Source: Kiloniellaceae bacterium
GTDB lineage: Bacteria > Pseudomonadota > Alphaproteobacteria > Kiloniellales > J153
Length of the DNA: 64,000 nt
Direction: 5' to 3'
Assembly (NCBI GenBank): GCA_021776095.1
Contig: JAJFGO010000003.1
Location: 62,001 to 126,000, forward strand
Under the pieces are notes generated by a model, which worked only from the letters and a program-made list of their open reading frames with translations, did no database searches and was not told the DNA's origin. Made by a program: the position numbers and the translations under genes. Shown here piece by piece: positions 46,122 to 53,954 of this stretch. Each line of letters begins with the position of its first letter. Positions within the stretch are counted from its first letter, which is position 1.

Positions 46122-46310
46122 ATGAAAACCCTCACGGCGAAGGACGCCAAATACGGCTTCGGGCGGTTGATCGACCTTGCCCGCGCCGAGCCGGTGACGG
46201 TGGCCAAGCACGGGCACCCCGTCGTGGTGGTCATGGCGGTTGAAGAGTTCGAGCGGCTCAAGGCGCTCGAAACAGCGGTGCAGTCACCTGAGCGAAAGGC
46301 AAAGGCCTGA
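46122..46310 (+). CDS. Phd/YefM-family antitoxin, no toxin partner
   Basis: The 62-residue protein has the Phd/YefM DNA-binding fold: KTLTAKDAKYGFGRLIDLARAEPVTVAKHGHPVVVVMAVEEF in sequence. Antitoxins of this family normally neutralise a Doc, RelE or PIN toxin encoded next to them. Here the next gene, one base after its stop, is hsdM, so it may act as a transcriptional regulator of the restriction locus or be an orphan. Confidence 0.82.
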   Translation: MKTLTAKDAKYGFGRLIDLARAEPVTVAKHGHPVVVVMAVEEFERLKALETAVQSPERKAKA

Positions 46311-46311
46311 A

Positions 46312-48513
46312 ATGGCGATCAAGAAATCCGACCTCTACTCCTCGCTCTGGGCCTCCTGCGATGAACTGCGCGGCGGCATGGATGCCGGCCAGTACAAGGA
46401 CTACGTCCTGTTCATGCTGTTCATCAAGTACATCACCGACAAGTACGGGAACAGCGACGACTTCTCCCCGCCGGTCACCATCCCCAAGGGCGCGAGCTTC
46501 ACCGACATGATCGCGCTCAAGGGCAAAAGCGACGTCGGCGACAAGATCAACACCCAGATCATCCAGCCGCTGATCGACGCCAATTCACGGCTCGCCCGCA
46601 GCGACTTCCCCGACTTCAACGATCCGAACAAGCTCGGAGAAGGGCAGGCGATGGTGGATCGCCTGACGAACCTCATCGGCATCTTCCAAAGGCCCGAGCT
46701 CGACTTCTCGCAGAACCGCGCCGAGCACGACGACATCCTCGGCGACGCCTACGAATACCTCATGCGGCACTTCGCCACCGAGAGCGGGAAGAGCAAAGGC
46801 CAGTTCTATACGCCGGCCGAAGTCAGCCGCGTCATCGCCAAGGTGATCGGCATCTCGCCAGAGAACGCCAAGGCCTCGACCACGGCCTACGACCCCACCT
46901 GCGGATCGGGCTCGCTGCTCCTGAAGGTGCCCGCCGAGGCGGGCAAGCACATTACCCTCGAAGGGCAGGAGAGGGATGTGACCACCGCCGGTCTCGCCCG
47001 CATGAACATGATCCTGCACGATTTCCCGACGGCGAATATCATCTCGGGCAACACGCTGGCCGCGCCCAAGTTCAGGGACGGCGAGAACCTGCGCACCTAC
47101 GACTACGCCGTCGCCAATCCGCCCTTCTCCGACAAGACCTGGAGCACCGGCCTCACGCCCGCCAGCGACCCCTTCCAGCGCTTCGCTTGGGGCGAGCCGC
47201 CGGCCAAGCAGGGCGACTATGCCTACCTGCTGCACATCGTCCGATCGATGAAGGGCGCGGGAAAGGGCGCCTGCATCCTGCCGCACGGTGTGCTCTTTCG
47301 CGGCCATGCCGAGGCTACGATCCGTGAGAAGCTCGTCCGTTCCGGCTACCTGAAGGGCATCATCGGACTGCCCGCCAACCTCTTCTACGGTACCGGCATC
47401 CCCGCCTGCATCCTGGTTCTCGACAAGGAGAACGCCGCCGCCCGCAAGGGCGTGTTCATGATCGACGCCTCGAAGGGGTTCATCAAGGACGGCAACAAGA
47501 ACCGCCTGCGCGAGCAGGACATTCACAAGATCGTGGACATCTTCGCCAAGCTGGCCGACAGCCCGCGCTACGCCCGCATGGTGCCGCTGGACGAGATCGC
47601 CGGCCCAAAGAACGACTTCAACCTCAATCTGCCGCGCTACATCGATAGCACCGAGCCGGAAGACCTGCAGGACATCGACGGCCACTTGAGGGGCGGCATT
47701 CCGGAGCGCGATCTCGACGCCTTGGCCGCCTATTGGCAGGTGCTGCCAAGCGTGCGCGCCGCTCTGTTCGAGTCCGCCGGCCGCCCCGGCTACGCCCGCC
47801 TTGCGCCGGCGCTGCCCGAGGTTAAGCCCGCCATTTTTAGCCACGCCGAGTTTACCGCCTTCAACGAGCAGGCGATTCAGCGCTTCAACCGCTGGCGCGA
47901 AGAGAACCAGCCACGGCTCACCGGCTTCGCCAAGGACGGCCACCCCAAGGTGCTGATCGAGACCATCGCCGAGGCGCTGCTCGTCACCTTCCGCCCGGCG
48001 CCGCTGCTCGACGCCTACGACATCTACCAGCACCTGATGGACTACTGGGCCAAGACCATGCAGGACGACTGCTATCTGATTTCCGCCGATGGCTGGGTAA
48101 AGGGCGCGGAGCCTCGCGAGATCGTTCGTGTCAAGAACAAGGACAACAAGCTCGTTTGGCCGGAGCCGCACGACTACCTGAAAGGTAAGCGGCGATTCAA
48201 GTCCGATCTGGTGCCCGCGCCAATTCTAGTTGCCAAGTACTTTGTTGCCGAGCGTGACGCCATCGAAGCTCTGGACAACGAGCTCGCCACTCTGGAGCAG
48301 CAACTCGATGAAATGCGCGAGGAGAACAGCAGCGAGGAAGGGCTGCTTTCAGAGGTGATCGAAGGCGAGGGCGACAAGCAGAAGATCACCGCAAAGGCTG
48401 TGAAAGCTCGCCTGAAAGAGATCGGGAATAACCCCGTCTACAGCGACGAGCGCTACAAGTTCGACACCTACACGCAGCATGTCCTCAAGGCCGGCCAGAC
48501 GACCAAGCAGTAA
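46312..48513 (+). CDS. hsdM: Type I restriction-modification DNA methyltransferase subunit
   Basis: The start ATG at 46312 lies one base after the antitoxin stop. The 733-residue protein has the HsdM N-terminal helical domain (SLWASCDELRGGMDAGQYKDYVLFMLFIKYI), the SAM-binding motif DPTCGSGSLL near residue 193 and the adenine-N6 catalytic NPPF near residue 268. The C-terminal part is long and coiled (LDNELATLEQQLDEMREENS). Normally it needs HsdS for target recognition; no hsdS is present, so activity requires an HsdS from elsewhere. Confidence 0.92.
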   Translation: MAIKKSDLYSSLWASCDELRGGMDAGQYKDYVLFMLFIKYITDKYGNSDDFSPPVTIPKGASFTDMIALKGKSDVGDKINTQIIQPLIDANSRLARSDFPDFNDPNKLGEGQAMVDRLTNLIGIFQRPELDFSQNRAEHDDILGDAYEYLMRHFATESGKSKGQFYTPAEVSRVIAKVIGISPENAKASTTAYDPTCGSGSLLLKVPAEAGKHITLEGQERDVTTAGLARMNMILHDFPTANIISGNTLAAPKFRDGENLRTYDYAVANPPFSDKTWSTGLTPASDPFQRFAWGEPPAKQGDYAYLLHIVRSMKGAGKGACILPHGVLFRGHAEATIREKLVRSGYLKGIIGLPANLFYGTGIPACILVLDKENAAARKGVFMIDASKGFIKDGNKNRLREQDIHKIVDIFAKLADSPRYARMVPLDEIAGPKNDFNLNLPRYIDSTEPEDLQDIDGHLRGGIPERDLDALAAYWQVLPSVRAALFESAGRPGYARLAPALPEVKPAIFSHAEFTAFNEQAIQRFNRWREENQPRLTGFAKDGHPKVLIETIAEALLVTFRPAPLLDAYDIYQHLMDYWAKTMQDDCYLISADGWVKGAEPREIVRVKNKDNKLVWPEPHDYLKGKRRFKSDLVPAPILVAKYFVAERDAIEALDNELATLEQQLDEMREENSSEEGLLSEVIEGEGDKQKITAKAVKARLKEIGNNPVYSDERYKFDTYTQHVLKAGQTTKQ

Positions 48514-49815
48514 GAGGACGAAACTAAGCGGCGCTTCATCGAGGAGCCGGCAAACCTCAAACTCCTGATCGTGGTGAGCAAGCTGCTCACCGGCTTCGAT
48601 GCGCCGAGCTGCAGCTACATCTACCTCGACAACGAGTTGCGCGATCACAACCTGTTCCAGGCCATCTGCCGCACCAACCGGCTCGACGGGGAAGACAAGG
48701 ACTACGGCCACATCGTCGATTTCAAGGAGCTGTTCGGCGACGTGCAGCAGGCGATCGCGGTCTACAGTTCCGACGAACTGGACGTCGACGAGGGCGACGG
48801 CGGCGACAACAACGTCCACCTCAAGAACTGGCTGGAAGAAGGTAGGAAGAAGCTCGACGAGGCCCGCGAAGCGTTGCGTTATTTGTGCGAGCCGGTGGCG
48901 CTGCCGCGCGAGGTGGAGCAGTTCCTGCATTACTTCTGCGGCGACGCCGCCAACCCGAACGCGCTGAACGAGACTGAGGCGCTGCGGATATCGTTCTACA
49001 AGGCGGTGGCCACCTTCGTGCGCGCCTTTGCCGCGATCGCGCAGGACCTGACCGAGGCGGGCTATTCCGACGCTGAAGCAGCGACGTTGCAGAAAGAGGT
49101 CGCGTTTTACAGTGACATCCGTGCGGCCATCAAAAAGCACTCGGGCGAGGAGCTCGACGTCAAGCCCTACGAGGCAGACATGCGCCACCTCCTCAACACG
49201 TACATTCAAGCCGACCCGGCCGCTGACCTGGGCAAGCTGGGCCAGATGTCGCTGACCGAGCTTATCATCGAGACCGGCATTCACGACGCCATCGCCAGGA
49301 AGCTCAACGAAAAGGGCAAGCTCTCGAAGAACGCCATCGCCGAGGGGATCATCAATAACGTCCGCAAGACCATCATTCGTGACCAGCTGACGGACCCTCG
49401 GTTCTACGAGCAGATGTCGAAGCTGCTCGACGACCTCATCAAGCAGAGCCGGGCGGATACGGCAGCGTACGAGGAGTTTCTGCGGAAGGCCGAGGCGCTG
49501 GTGAAGCGGCTGGCGGCGAAGCAACCCGACGCGGGCATTCCAGCCGTTCTGCACGGTAAGCCCGAAGCCGTGGTGTTGTTCAACAATCTTGGCTCGATCG
49601 CGGCAGCGAGTTTTCAGTGTCCGGTGGATGACGAGGCGAAGGCGGAGCTGGCCCTGAAGATCGACCTCGCTGTGCGCGAACGCGCCCCCGCGGGATGGAA
49701 GGGCGATCAGGCGCGTGAGGCGCAGGTGCTCAATGCTCTGTTTCCGATCCTCGGCCGCGACCGCGAGGCCACGCAGGCGCTGTTCGAGATTATCAAGAAT
49801 CAGCCGGGGTATTGA
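48514..49815 (+). pseudogene. hsdR: Type I restriction subunit, C-terminal remnant
   Basis: Directly after the hsdM stop, in the same frame, the DNA encodes HsdR sequence starting EDETKRRFIEEPANLKLLIV. It keeps helicase motifs V (SKLLTGFDAPS) and VI (LFQAICRTNRLDGE) and about 380 residues of the C-terminal helical domain. The nuclease domain and most of the motor, plus all of hsdS, are missing. The remnant of 433 codons compares with about 1000 in a full HsdR. No proper start codon with a binding site is seen except GTG at 48571. Confidence 0.88.
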
Positions 49816-50531
49816 TGGCGGAGACGATCCAGCTCGGCGACATCGTCATCGCGGTGACCCGGAAGGATATCAAGCATGTTCATCTGTCGGTGCACCCACC
49901 GAGCGGCCGCGTCACGCTGGTCGCACCCATCGGAACCCGCCCGGAGGTGGCTCGGGCCTACGCGATCTCCAGGCTGGGATGGATCCGCGACCAGCAGGCG
50001 AAGCTGCTAGGGCAGGCGAGGGAGACACCGCGACAGTTCGTCGAGCGGGAGAGCCACTACCTCTGGGGCCGGCGCTATCTGCTGTCCGTCGTTGAGAAGG
50101 ACGCGAAGCCCTCCGTAACGCTCGATCATCGTCGGATCACACTGACCGTCCGTCCCGGCCGCAGCAAAGCGAAGCGCGAGGCGGCCATGCACGAGTGGCA
50201 CAAATCGTTGCTTCACGACGCAGTACCGGGACTGATCAAGAAATGGGAGACGAAACTCGGCGTGAAGGTTTCCGGCTACTTCCTCCAGCGCATGAAGACG
50301 AAGTGGGGCGGCTGCAATCACCGGGCGCGGAATATCCGCCTGAACACCGAGCTGGTAAAGAAGCCGAAGGACCTGCTGGAATACGTTGTCGTGCACGAGT
50401 TGATCCACCTGATCGAGCCCACGCACAGCGAACGCTTCCTTGAGTTGATGGCCGAGCACTACCCGGCTTGGCGGGAGGCTCGCGAAGAGCTCAACGAACT
50501 GCCGCTGGCGGCCGAGGTATGGAATGAATGA
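49815..50531 (+). CDS. YgjP-like metallopeptidase (SprT/M48-related)
   Basis: The ATG overlaps the hsdR-remnant stop (TGATG at 49813). The 238-residue protein has the zinc-protease motif in VVHELIHLIEPTHSERF (HELIH plus a downstream His) and the preceding KWGGCNHRARNIRLNTELVKKP, typical of YgjP/DUF45 proteins. This family often lies just after hsdR in type I restriction loci. The role there is unknown. Confidence 0.88.
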   Translation: MAETIQLGDIVIAVTRKDIKHVHLSVHPPSGRVTLVAPIGTRPEVARAYAISRLGWIRDQQAKLLGQARETPRQFVERESHYLWGRRYLLSVVEKDAKPSVTLDHRRITLTVRPGRSKAKREAAMHEWHKSLLHDAVPGLIKKWETKLGVKVSGYFLQRMKTKWGGCNHRARNIRLNTELVKKPKDLLEYVVVHELIHLIEPTHSERFLELMAEHYPAWREAREELNELPLAAEVWNE

Positions 50532-50683
50532 TTGCTTGGTGAGGTTGTGCTGGTTAGTCGGGGTGGTTTATCCGTCGGACCTTCAGGACGCCGCCGTGCA
50601 GACGGTCCTGCAACAGGCCGAAGTGCTTTCGGCACGGTGGGCGGCATGAGCCAGGGCCAAGATATAGCCGCCGGAGACGCCTG

Positions 50684-51376
50684 ATGGCGCGGTCCGTCAG
50701 TTCCCTAAAGGCGCTTCAGCTCGACCCTGAAAAGGTCGCCTACTGGTATTTCCGCCTGAACGGCTATCTCCAGATCGAGAATTTCGTTGTTCACCCCGAA
50801 AGGCACGGAGGCCAGCGTACGGACGCCGATCTGCTAGCCGTCCGATTCCCTCACCGTGCCGAGCGCCTGATCGACGATCCGAACGACATCATGCCGGATG
50901 ATGAGCACCGGCTCTCGCTCTCCCACGACCTGATCGATGTGGTCATCGCCGAGGTGAAGACGAACCAGCCCTGCACCCTGAACGGCCCCTGGACGCAGGA
51001 ATACCGCCAGAATGTCCACCGCGTGCTGGCCGTGATCGGCTGCCTTCCGCCCGACCGCATCGCCGAGGCCGCAGCGGACATCTACCGGGCTGGCATCCAT
51101 GCAAGCGACTTGGGACTTCGTATCCGCCTTGTCGCGGTGGGGCGAGACCGCAGTGATGACCTCGCGGCGCACTATCCCGACGTGACCCAGCTGATCTGGG
51201 CGGACCTGCTCGCGTTCATCTGGGATCGCTTTCATACCTACAGGCAGCAGAAGACCCAAGTGGACCAGTGGGACGCGCAGGGGCGGAAAATCAAACTCCT
51301 CGCAGATCGGTCAAAAAATGCAGGAGAGTTCGTCGCTAGCGCATTGCCCCTCATGGGAGTGCGGAATGACCTTTGA
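50684..51376 (+). CDS. Hypothetical protein with PD-(D/E)XK nuclease-like pattern, 230 residues
   Basis: The N-terminal half shows the spacing of a PD-(D/E)XK nuclease core: YWYFRLNGYLQIENFVVHP, then RTDADLLAVRFPHR with an acidic residue, then SHDLIDVVIAEVKTNQP with the E-x-K pair. The C-terminal half is helical. This is inferred from motif order and not from a known family. Its place after the restriction remnants suggests a defence role. Confidence 0.65.
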   Translation: MARSVSSLKALQLDPEKVAYWYFRLNGYLQIENFVVHPERHGGQRTDADLLAVRFPHRAERLIDDPNDIMPDDEHRLSLSHDLIDVVIAEVKTNQPCTLNGPWTQEYRQNVHRVLAVIGCLPPDRIAEAAADIYRAGIHASDLGLRIRLVAVGRDRSDDLAAHYPDVTQLIWADLLAFIWDRFHTYRQQKTQVDQWDAQGRKIKLLADRSKNAGEFVASALPLMGVRNDL

Positions 51377-51447
51377 AGCCCCAAACATCAAGTGAACTGG
51401 CCGAAGGCCGTCAAAGATAAGATCTAAAATTTGAAGGGAAATTTGCG

Positions 51448-52248
51448 ATGAACTTGAGCCGACGTTCGTGTTTATCGCTTTGTCAGTTTCTTGACCTGTT
51501 CGACAGAGACGCGCTCGTCATTCTGTTCGAGAAACATGGGCTGCGCTTTGGGGAACTCTCAAACGAGTGGGGCGGAACGAGCGTTACCGCTGCTGTTCAC
51601 GAGGCGGTTCTCCAGGCAACCGGCGAACAGATCGGTAATGCCTTGGGAGAGATCGTTAGGACCCGCGGAGCGCTGCGCTGCCGGATTTCACCTCGTTACC
51701 AGTTCGACGAGAGATGGAATGACTTACTGCTTTGTCTGGAACTAGATGGATATCGGCGAGGACTGGACGAATATGGAAGAGAAACGGACACGTTCGTTCC
51801 GACTGAGCCAACAATAGAAGGGGTACTGGCTGTCGAGGACGATCTCGCCACAGAGCTGCGCCTATCTGGATTGCCTGACACAGATGAGATTGCACGTGTT
51901 GTCGAGAACTCAGCCAACTCATTTCGCCGCGGCGATTTCAATGCTTGTCTCAGCAGTGCCAGGGTAGCTCTACAGTTTTTGGCGACGGCGATTGCAATTC
52001 AAAGACAGACAAGCATTCCAGGGACCTTTGATCCAAACAAGTGGGGGCAGATCGCAGCATATTTGCGCAAGTCCGAGTTCATTACTGATCAACAGGAAGC
52101 CGGTCTAACGGGCGTATTCAGTTTTGCGAGTCCTGGGGCCCACATCCCGGTTGGCTTTTCTGAACAAGAGTTTGCAAGACTTGGGCGAAACCTTGCATTG
52201 GGGTTCTGCTATTTTTTGGTCAAACATTTCAACGCAGGATCGAAGTAG
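51448..52248 (+). CDS. Hypothetical protein, possible abortive-infection type, 266 residues
   Basis: The product falls into an N-terminal helical domain (about residues 1-110, with DRDALVILFEKHGLRFGELSNEWGG in two parts) and a C-terminal helical domain (about 150-260) containing FRRGDFNACLSSARVALQFLATAIA, reminiscent of HEPN/Abi-type proteins. The link NDLLLCLELDGYRRGLDEYGR is also typical of Abi-like architectures. No catalytic RxxxxH is seen, so HEPN nuclease activity is not claimed. Base composition is lower in GC than its neighbours. Confidence 0.5.
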   Translation: MNLSRRSCLSLCQFLDLFDRDALVILFEKHGLRFGELSNEWGGTSVTAAVHEAVLQATGEQIGNALGEIVRTRGALRCRISPRYQFDERWNDLLLCLELDGYRRGLDEYGRETDTFVPTEPTIEGVLAVEDDLATELRLSGLPDTDEIARVVENSANSFRRGDFNACLSSARVALQFLATAIAIQRQTSIPGTFDPNKWGQIAAYLRKSEFITDQQEAGLTGVFSFASPGAHIPVGFSEQEFARLGRNLALGFCYFLVKHFNAGSK

Positions 52249-52334: not shown

Positions 52335-53920
52335 ATGACAAAGACACCCAAACAAATCATCCGCCACGCCGCCACCGATATCATCCGAGCGGTGGCCTAT
52401 GCCCGGGTTTCGTCGAAGGAGCAGGAGAAAGAAGGCTTCTCGATCTCTGCCCAACTCAAGCTGCTCAGGGAGTATGCCGTTTGCGAGGGCATCGCGATCG
52501 TCGAGGAGTATGTCGATGTCGAGACGGCCAAGCAGACCGGGCGCGCCAGTTTCGGGGAGATGGTGGCGTTCCTGAAGGCGAGTCCGCGGGTCTGCATCAT
52601 CCTGGTCGAAAAGACCGACCGGCTCTACCGGAACCTCAAGGACTGGGTGATGCTCGACGAGCTGGATATCGAAATTCACCTCGTCAAGGAGGGGGCGGTG
52701 CTGTCCCGCGACTCGCGGTCGTCCGAGAAGTTCATGCACGGCATCAAGGTGCTGATGGCCAAGAACTACATCGACAACCTGTCCGAGGAGACCAAAAAGG
52801 GCATGCTGGAGAAGGCCGAGCAGGGTATCTGGCCCTCGGCTGCCCCGCTCGGCTACCGTAACTCGGATGGCGCCAGCGGCAAGCGAGTGATTGAACCCGA
52901 CCCGGAAGTGGCGCCGCACGTCACAAAGATGTTCGAATGGTATGCGGCCGGCGGGTTCGCGCTGCGCGACTTGGCGAAAAAGGCCCGGCAGGCCGGCTTC
53001 AGCTACCGTAAGAGCGGCAAGCCGGTGCCGACCAGCACGGTTCTCACAAGATCCTGCGCAACCGGCTCTACATGGGCGAGTTTGAGTGGAACGGCCGACT
53101 GTACCAGGGCAGCCATCAATCCCTGGTCTCGCGAGACCTGTGGGAACGTGTGCAGGACATACTCGACGGCCGCAATGCGAGCAAGCATCGCCGCGTGAAG
53201 CACGATTTCGCGTTCTCGGGCCTGATCGCCTGCGGTCACTGCGGCTGCTCGGTGGTCGGCGAGATCAAGAAGCAGCGCTACATCTACTACCACTGCACCG
53301 GCTACAAGGGGAAATGCGACGAACCCTACGTGCGCGAGGAGGTGCTGGAGGAGAAGTTTACGGCGCGGCTGGGCCGCCTGGCCTTCGACGGCGAAATCCT
53401 CGACTGGGTCCGCGACGCCCTGCACGAGTGCCACGCCGACGAGCGCCGGGAGCACGAGGCGGCGATCGAGCGCCTGCGCGCCGAATACGACCGGCTCCAG
53501 AACCGCATTCACGCCGCCTATGTCGATAAGCTCGACGGCACCATCGACGCGGCCTTCTACGAGAAGATTTCGGGAGAATGGCAGGCCGAGCAGGACCGCT
53601 GCCTGCGCGACATCGAGCGTCATCAGGGCGCCGACCGCTCCTATCTCGAAGAGGGCGTGCGCCTTATCGAACTGGCACAGAACGCCCAGCGGCTCTTCGA
53701 AAGGCAGGCTGCGCGCGAAAAACGGCGGCTTCTGAATTTCCTGGTTTCGAACTGCTCCTGGCGAGATGGTGAGTTGACCGTGACATTGCGGCAACCCTTT
53801 GACTTGATTGCAGAAGCTACGGCCATCGACGCAAAAAGAAAGGCCGCTGGAGGCGTCTCCAACTACCTTTCTGTGAATTGGCTCCGCGGGCAGGACTCGA
53901 ACCTGCGACATGGTGGTTAA
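52335..53920 (+). pseudogene. Large serine recombinase, frameshifted, 3' end displaced
   Basis: The N-terminal resolvase domain (about residues 17-155) has the catalytic Ser in AVAYARVSSKEQEKEGFS and the LVEKTDRLYRNLKD region. The recombinase domain continues to PVPTSTV at about 53044. One base is then missing: the expected H-KILRNRLYMGEFEWNGRLYQ continues in another frame (from about 53047 on). The zinc ribbon (CGHCGCSV, then HCTGYKGKC), coiled coil and end follow. The last 15 codons (from 53876) come from the tRNA-Asn end; the native ones are at 28424-28518. It integrated the island. Confidence 0.9.
53876..53885. repeat. Right att core (attR) overlapping tRNA-Asn
   Basis: AATTGGCTCC, identical to 28414-28423. 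It includes the CCA end, discriminator and first acceptor base pairs of tRNA-Asn, read on the minus strand. Recombination here leaves the tRNA intact. Confidence 0.85.
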
Positions 53921-53954
53921 CAGCCACCCGCTCTACCAACTGAGCTACCGCGGA
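53879..53954 (-). tRNA. tRNA-Asn (anticodon GTT)
   Basis: On the minus strand the acceptor arms TCCGCGG/CCGCGGA pair, the D arm is GCTC-AGTTGGTA-GAGC, the anticodon stem-loop GGTGG-CTGTTAA-CCACC gives GTT, and the T arm is GCAGG-TTCGAGT-CCTGC. CCA is encoded. The 76-nt gene is complete and is the island's attachment site. Confidence 0.97.

Follow-up and report, generated by a model that had tools for sequence, protein, structure and literature searches.

Two adjacent genes in a 64,000-nucleotide stretch of alphaproteobacterial DNA (the window), here called gene 1 and gene 2, are on balance probably separate items of cargo, likely anti-phage, in an island that lies at a tRNA-Asn gene and has a serine recombinase: gene 1 would be a restriction-linked accessory nuclease and gene 2 an independently acquired HEPN-like gene. 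Both open reading frames are intact, with ATG starts, and encode 230 and 266 codons, respectively. They are flanked by the following features.

46309–48513, + strand: HsdM, type I DNA methyltransferase (N6_Mtase 4.1e-92, HsdM_N 6.7e-12; PADLOC MTase_I)
48571–49815, + strand: C-terminal fragment of HsdR (matches to T1R_D3-like and T1RH-like_C only)
49812–50531, + strand: YgjP-like metallopeptidase (PF01863 2.6e-56)
50569–50649, + strand: remnant, likely the 3' end (26 codons and the stop) of a second, HindI-type hsdR (match to the HsdR end of locus L037)
50684–51376, + strand: gene 1, PD-(D/E)XK-fold protein of an unnamed family (assigned from fold, motif and locus setting)
51448–52248, + strand: gene 2, with an N-terminal domain (about residues 1–120) without clear match and a putative C-terminal HEPN-like domain near DUF4145 (about residues 121–266)
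52335–53920, + strand: serine recombinase in two overlapping frames (Resolvase, Recombinase, Zn_ribbon_recom)
53879–53954, − strand: tRNA-Asn, presumed integration site (ARAGORN; the recombinase runs into the tRNA gene)

The original prediction had placed the pair between restriction remnants and a recombinase, and this layout bears it out, with HsdM, the HsdR fragment and the YgjP-like gene upstream and the serine recombinase at tRNA-Asn downstream. The HsdR fragment corresponds to positions 637–1030 of the 1034-position PADLOC REase_I profile, its first domain being the third of HsdR; hsdS and the N-terminal portion of hsdR are missing from the type I locus at 46309–49815. A lone PhdYefM-type antitoxin (46122–46310) is encoded immediately upstream of hsdM. 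The short remnant at 50569–50649 aligned with the end of the L037 HsdR, which carries T1RH-like_C, over 26 residues at 50% identity (E = 9.6e-5, searched in a small set of loci). Because of this match, and because gene 1 starts 34 bases past the stop codon of the remnant, gene 1 was most likely once located downstream of another type I operon, now lost.

The recombinase at the other edge of the island was compared with the intact 530-aa recombinase of locus L013, which it matched at 69.5% over 52389–53048 and at 63.5% over 53045–53902. A frame change near 53045 splits the window gene, the L013 relative being a single 530-aa frame, and the break represents either a pseudogene or a draft-assembly error. 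The recombinase gene of L013 also extends into a tRNA gene, namely tRNA-Gln. Within the recombinase gene of locus L008, ~380 bases (L008:12912–13290) are inverted relative to L013 and the window; interpretation of this stretch as an invertible segment was rejected, as no flanking inverted repeat of at least 14 bases was found.

Gene 1 can be firmly assigned to the PD-(D/E)XK fold. Its AlphaFold2 model, computed from 22 aligned rows (pLDDT 88.9, pTM 0.87), consists of helix 15–25, strands 29–35, 47–54 and 84–91, helix 110–118 and strand 145–153, which is the alpha-beta-beta-beta-alpha-beta core order of PD-(D/E)XK proteins, with E90-x-K92 located at the end of strand 84–91. The best structural match in VIA-align 2 was AF1548 (Z 7.5, 111 residues, 2.8 Å), followed by FokI (6.2), Nt.BspD6I (5.7), Can2 (5.6), EndoMS (5.4), the R.BspD6I small subunit (5.3), XisH (5.2) and HamA (5.0), with MspJI also among the best rows (Z 5.0–7.5); these Z values are modest, all below 8 and tied with neighbouring rows. 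We take the PD-(D/E)XK fold to be common to these top rows, including those whose titles do not name it; a family missing from a VIA-align list is not thereby excluded. Foldseek placed MspJI first, with all E-values above 0.01. The order D...D...E-x-K noticed in the original prediction is formed by D47, D49 and E90-x-K92, and its conservation is above chance across 22 aligned proteins, namely the window protein and 21 of its 24 relatives (L003, L021 and L030 were omitted, the frames of the latter two being broken). E16 and D49 are identical in all 22 proteins, whereas E90 and K92 are each kept in 21, with K in place of E90 in L009, a member of the operon group described below, and T in place of K92 in L026; N33, H37 and W103 are also invariant. 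The fold assignment is firm because the top structural matches are nucleases of one fold and the residues are conserved. Thus, the nuclease core that had been predicted, with structure prediction proposed as the check, is present in the model and carries the conserved E16, D49, E90 and K92, and the protein is probably a metal-dependent nuclease by activity.

The 24 loci with gene-1 relatives comprise one plasmid relative (Aquincola, L003) and 23 in genome contigs. In one alphaproteobacterial branch, gene 1 has a recurrent place inside hsd operons: in six loci (L008–L013) it is the next gene after hsdS, and the fourth gene, in a type I operon, and in all six the two genes overlap by 4 bases. 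Upstream of gene 1 in L010 are genes for HsdR (ResIII, EcoEI_R_C, HSDR_N), HsdM (N6_Mtase, HsdM_N) and HsdS (Methylase_S). The same Hsd families precede gene 1 in L008 and L011–L013, with identities to L010 of 86–88% for HsdR, 86–91% for HsdM, 38–44% for HsdS and 75–92% for gene 1. In L009, gene 1 is preceded by a divergent HsdM (22% identity to L010) and a divergent HsdS, the last residues of which resemble those of the other five operon loci. Because this hsdS end is common to the other five, L009 may have exchanged its upstream cassette and may not be a separate association. A 496-aa gene without a Pfam match (L010:7919–9409; 97% identical in L011) shares 4 bases with the end of gene 1 and may represent a fifth operon gene. 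Searches with the L010 HsdR and HsdM identified no type I operon within the stretches examined of the remaining 18 loci, so that the restriction link is a trait of one branch, comprising 6 of the 24 loci. In a tree of the 22 alignment rows and L003, the window gene 1 lies near the operon group, with L008 as the nearest row.

Outside the operons, gene 1 occurs in other defence settings. When 100 neighbours, each 120 aa or longer and pooled from the 18 loci by a crude longest-ORF gene call, were scanned with PADLOC without a control set, the matches listed, which cover 25 of 147 families, included BilA–D, QatA/C/D, ThsB, MTase_III and PDC-S02. In addition, QueC-like and TatD genes are located just upstream of gene 1 in L027, and an AbiEii gene lies near it in L026. 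The proposal that both genes belong to a defence setting thus agrees with the type I operons and the Qat, Bil, Thoeris and type III neighbours of gene 1, and with the defence-like neighbours of gene 2 described below. The same distribution is what would be expected if gene 1 were a stand-alone restriction or abortive nuclease, for example a modification-dependent one, that reached type I operons by hitch-hiking in defence islands: three-quarters of its homologues (18/24) lie outside such operons, some of them beside varied defence systems. However, the consistent overlap with hsdS suggests coupled expression of gene 1, and no second, DNA-reading domain is evident in the 230-residue model, so that we consider a stand-alone enzyme rather unlikely.

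For gene 1 as a restriction-linked accessory nuclease, the likeliest role would be that of an accessory DNase of type I restriction. As long as the Hsd complex functions, the protein might be held in check, and it might cut DNA once that complex encounters foreign DNA or a phage blocks the complex; alternatively, the protein could trim DNA opened by HsdR. Because the surrounding restriction enzymes are broken in the window, gene 1 would here act alone or survive from a decayed operon. A more specific proposal, that gene 1 is the first case noted of an hsdS-coupled fourth component of type I systems, a DNA-cutting guard held latent by the Hsd complex, freed when a phage blocks or escapes restriction and reused beside Qat, Bil and Thoeris, appears unlikely to us as it stands.

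Judged by record titles and including the operon members, the gene-1 loci span six phyla, Pseudomonadota, Cyanobacteriota, Planctomycetota, Abditibacteriota, Acidobacteriota and Actinomycetota, and gene 1 was found in 1 of 289 genomes of the class and 1 of 11 close relatives, in both cases the genome of the window itself. No relatives were detected in the viral contigs or phage records searched. No model in Pfam, PADLOC, NCBIfam or PHROGs matched the protein above chance, nor did any in Pfam or PADLOC match the aligned family; the single NCBIfam row, PacR, scored 12.4 bits, with the cut-off at 1200. When gene 1 and gene 2 were compared by sequence with solved structures, TPR and other chance rows only, or none, were returned, and no description of the gene-1 family was found in the available text of the open-access literature searched. 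The dN/dS ratio was 0.11–0.16 in each of four pairings with the window gene 1 and 0.145 for L008 versus L013; with dS near or above 1, these estimates are rough, and they point to purifying selection on gene 1 across the family. Such selection, together with the open frames of both genes, which are full length compared with their relatives, argues against both being functionless, decaying remnants of the island in the window strain, an explanation that the truncated HsdR and the split recombinase would favour and that we find improbable.

The C-terminal part of gene 2 is, with moderate confidence, predicted to be a HEPN-like domain near DUF4145, in which the motif is mostly degenerate. The AlphaFold2 model, built from two sequences (pLDDT 67), is mostly helical with one small hairpin. 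When this pLDDT-67 model was compared by VIA-align, AF0298, a HEPN protein, was matched by residues 138–265 (Z 10.4), and the sacsin HEPN domain (10.3), AbiA (10.0) and TM0613 (9.9) by stretches nearby. Three of these first four rows (Z 9.9–10.4) are titled HEPN, and AbiA presumably has a HEPN part. MntA-HepT (8.8) and Csm6' (8.5) were also matched, but unrelated helical bundles came close to the first four rows, with rhodopsins at 9.0. In Foldseek, AF0298 was recovered with a probability of 0.97 and an E-value of 0.47. The protein matched no model in Pfam, PADLOC, NCBIfam or PHROGs, and its aligned family none in Pfam at the curated cut-off; one relative touched Pfam DUF4145 at E 0.17.

Profile–profile search had been suggested as a check in the original prediction. 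The C-terminal profile of gene 2 aligned with that of nine DUF4145 domains over 84 columns with a score of 25.6, above all 100 column shuffles (maximum 18.9; hhalign probability 16%), and the conserved His of the two families is in register. The N-terminal part scored 16.7 against AbiJ_NTD3 (PF18860, one reference sequence), which lies above the 95% point of 100 column shuffles (15.8) and below their maximum (17.5). Abi_C, also considered as a relative, was set aside with a weak local match only. The invariant residues of the gene-2 family include N165, R172, E217, H232, R244 and R247. The window protein contains no Rx4-6H motif: H232 is present in all nine proteins and the matching Arg is absent from seven, an R-x6-H at the matching place being found only in L037 and L038. 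Of the initial description of gene 2 as an all-helical, HEPN/Abi-like protein, the HEPN-like domain is moderately supported by VIA-align, Foldseek and the DUF4145 profile, and its Rx4-6H motif is degenerate. The protein would most likely act in abortive infection, as an effector binding or cutting RNA.

Gene 2 has eight other members in our set (L004–L007, L031 and L037–L039), and it was found in 1 of 289 genomes of the class (its own) and in 5 of 398 genomes (its own, three full copies and one partial). Further searches recovered 4 of 398 in a largely identical sample, 3 of 48, already among the members, and 2 of 369, one a short partial copy and the other a partial copy with two stop codons; partial and broken copies were left out of the analysis. 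Viral contigs yielded one relative, on the same contig each time, and further viral-contig searches none; the one hit in phage records is an unverified record that on inspection carries plasmid-like genes.

The neighbours of gene 2 vary. A codirectional gene lies at most 75 bases upstream in five of the nine loci: gene 1 in the window; a GIY-YIG gene in L005, where the relative stands beside GIY-YIG and GASH genes and a BsuBI-type restriction-modification (R-M) system; an HNH gene in L004; an NDT-like gene in L031; and an HsdR gene in L037. No such close upstream partner was seen in the other four. In the viral contig L031 (7177–8792), the relative directly follows the NDT-like gene within apparent tail genes, a position in viral genomes that is typical of phage cargo. 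L037 (2306–10037) contains a type I operon in which a SIR2_2 gene precedes a full-length hsdR, followed by a trio of genes, namely the gene-2 relative, one with DUF3800 and one of 142 aa; on inspection, the same trio is present in L039.

The prediction that the two genes form a new two-gene defence unit was not supported. Gene 2 is absent from all 24 gene-1 loci and gene 1 from all eight other gene-2 loci, and the gene-2 profile gave no hit in 23 gene-1 genomes, a set with no built-in positive, although the same profile did find the genome of the window, and others, in the 398-genome sample. Base composition also differs, with a G+C content of 61.3% in gene 1, like that of the surroundings, and of 52.3% in gene 2 (76% and 53%, respectively, at third codon positions), which points to separate acquisition of gene 2. 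In L013, a different gene, of 462 aa, lies between gene 1 and the homologous recombinase, and the slot therefore appears to hold changeable cargo. A single defence unit of a nuclease effector and a HEPN-like partner thus seems highly improbable to us: the two genes do share a strand with only 71 bases between them, and the close upstream genes of the other gene-2 loci make a partner-swapping module conceivable, but the upstream gene changes every time, and none was seen in four of the nine loci. With the two-gene reading corrected, the genes are to be tested apart.

Nucleases linked to R-M systems, and likewise HEPN cargo, are already known kinds, and the fourth-gene position of gene 1 is the most interesting part of the present results. 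Should gene 1 cooperate with the Hsd complex, type I restriction in the bacteria concerned would include a second, small nuclease that has escaped the common profile libraries, and the six operons would then offer ready material on how restriction enzymes guard latent effectors. The closest parallel in arrangement is prrC, which, according to the accessible portions of the sources, is embedded in a type Ic operon (ecoprrI) and released upon blocked restriction (PMC3874165, PMC12707154). The available text of a further source forecasts in general terms that backup toxins of the REase-fold, HEPN and Sir2 kinds are encoded at type I and III loci (PMC3506569). In these accounts, PrrC resembles gene 1 as an extra nuclease gene within a type I operon for which a guard or backup logic has been proposed (PMC3874165, PMC12707154, PMC3506569). 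The two differ in that PrrC is an anticodon nuclease that also carries an ABC NTPase portion, whereas gene 1 lacks an NTPase and has a PD-(D/E)XK fold; in a PrrC-like guard role, gene 1 would target DNA instead of tRNA, and its control by Hsd is putative.

Among the R-M-linked toxins forecast in that excerpted source (PMC3506569), gene 1 fits as a REase-fold case coupled to hsdS and gene 2 as a HEPN-like one; gene 1 differs in belonging to a family without an above-chance model in Pfam, PADLOC, NCBIfam or PHROGs. DUF4145 is itself a HEPN family, and some HEPN families keep the H without the R, as given in the accessible part of PMC3710099. Gene 2 resembles DUF4145-like families in its C-terminal profile match and in the register of the His, but it lacks the Arg in seven of nine proteins and has an N-terminal domain of its own. 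Finally, FokI, Nt.BspD6I, AF1548 and EndoMS are alike to gene 1 in fold (Z 5.4–7.5 over ~100–130 residues), whereas their sequence identity to it is ~10–12% and gene 1 has no DNA-recognition domain attached.
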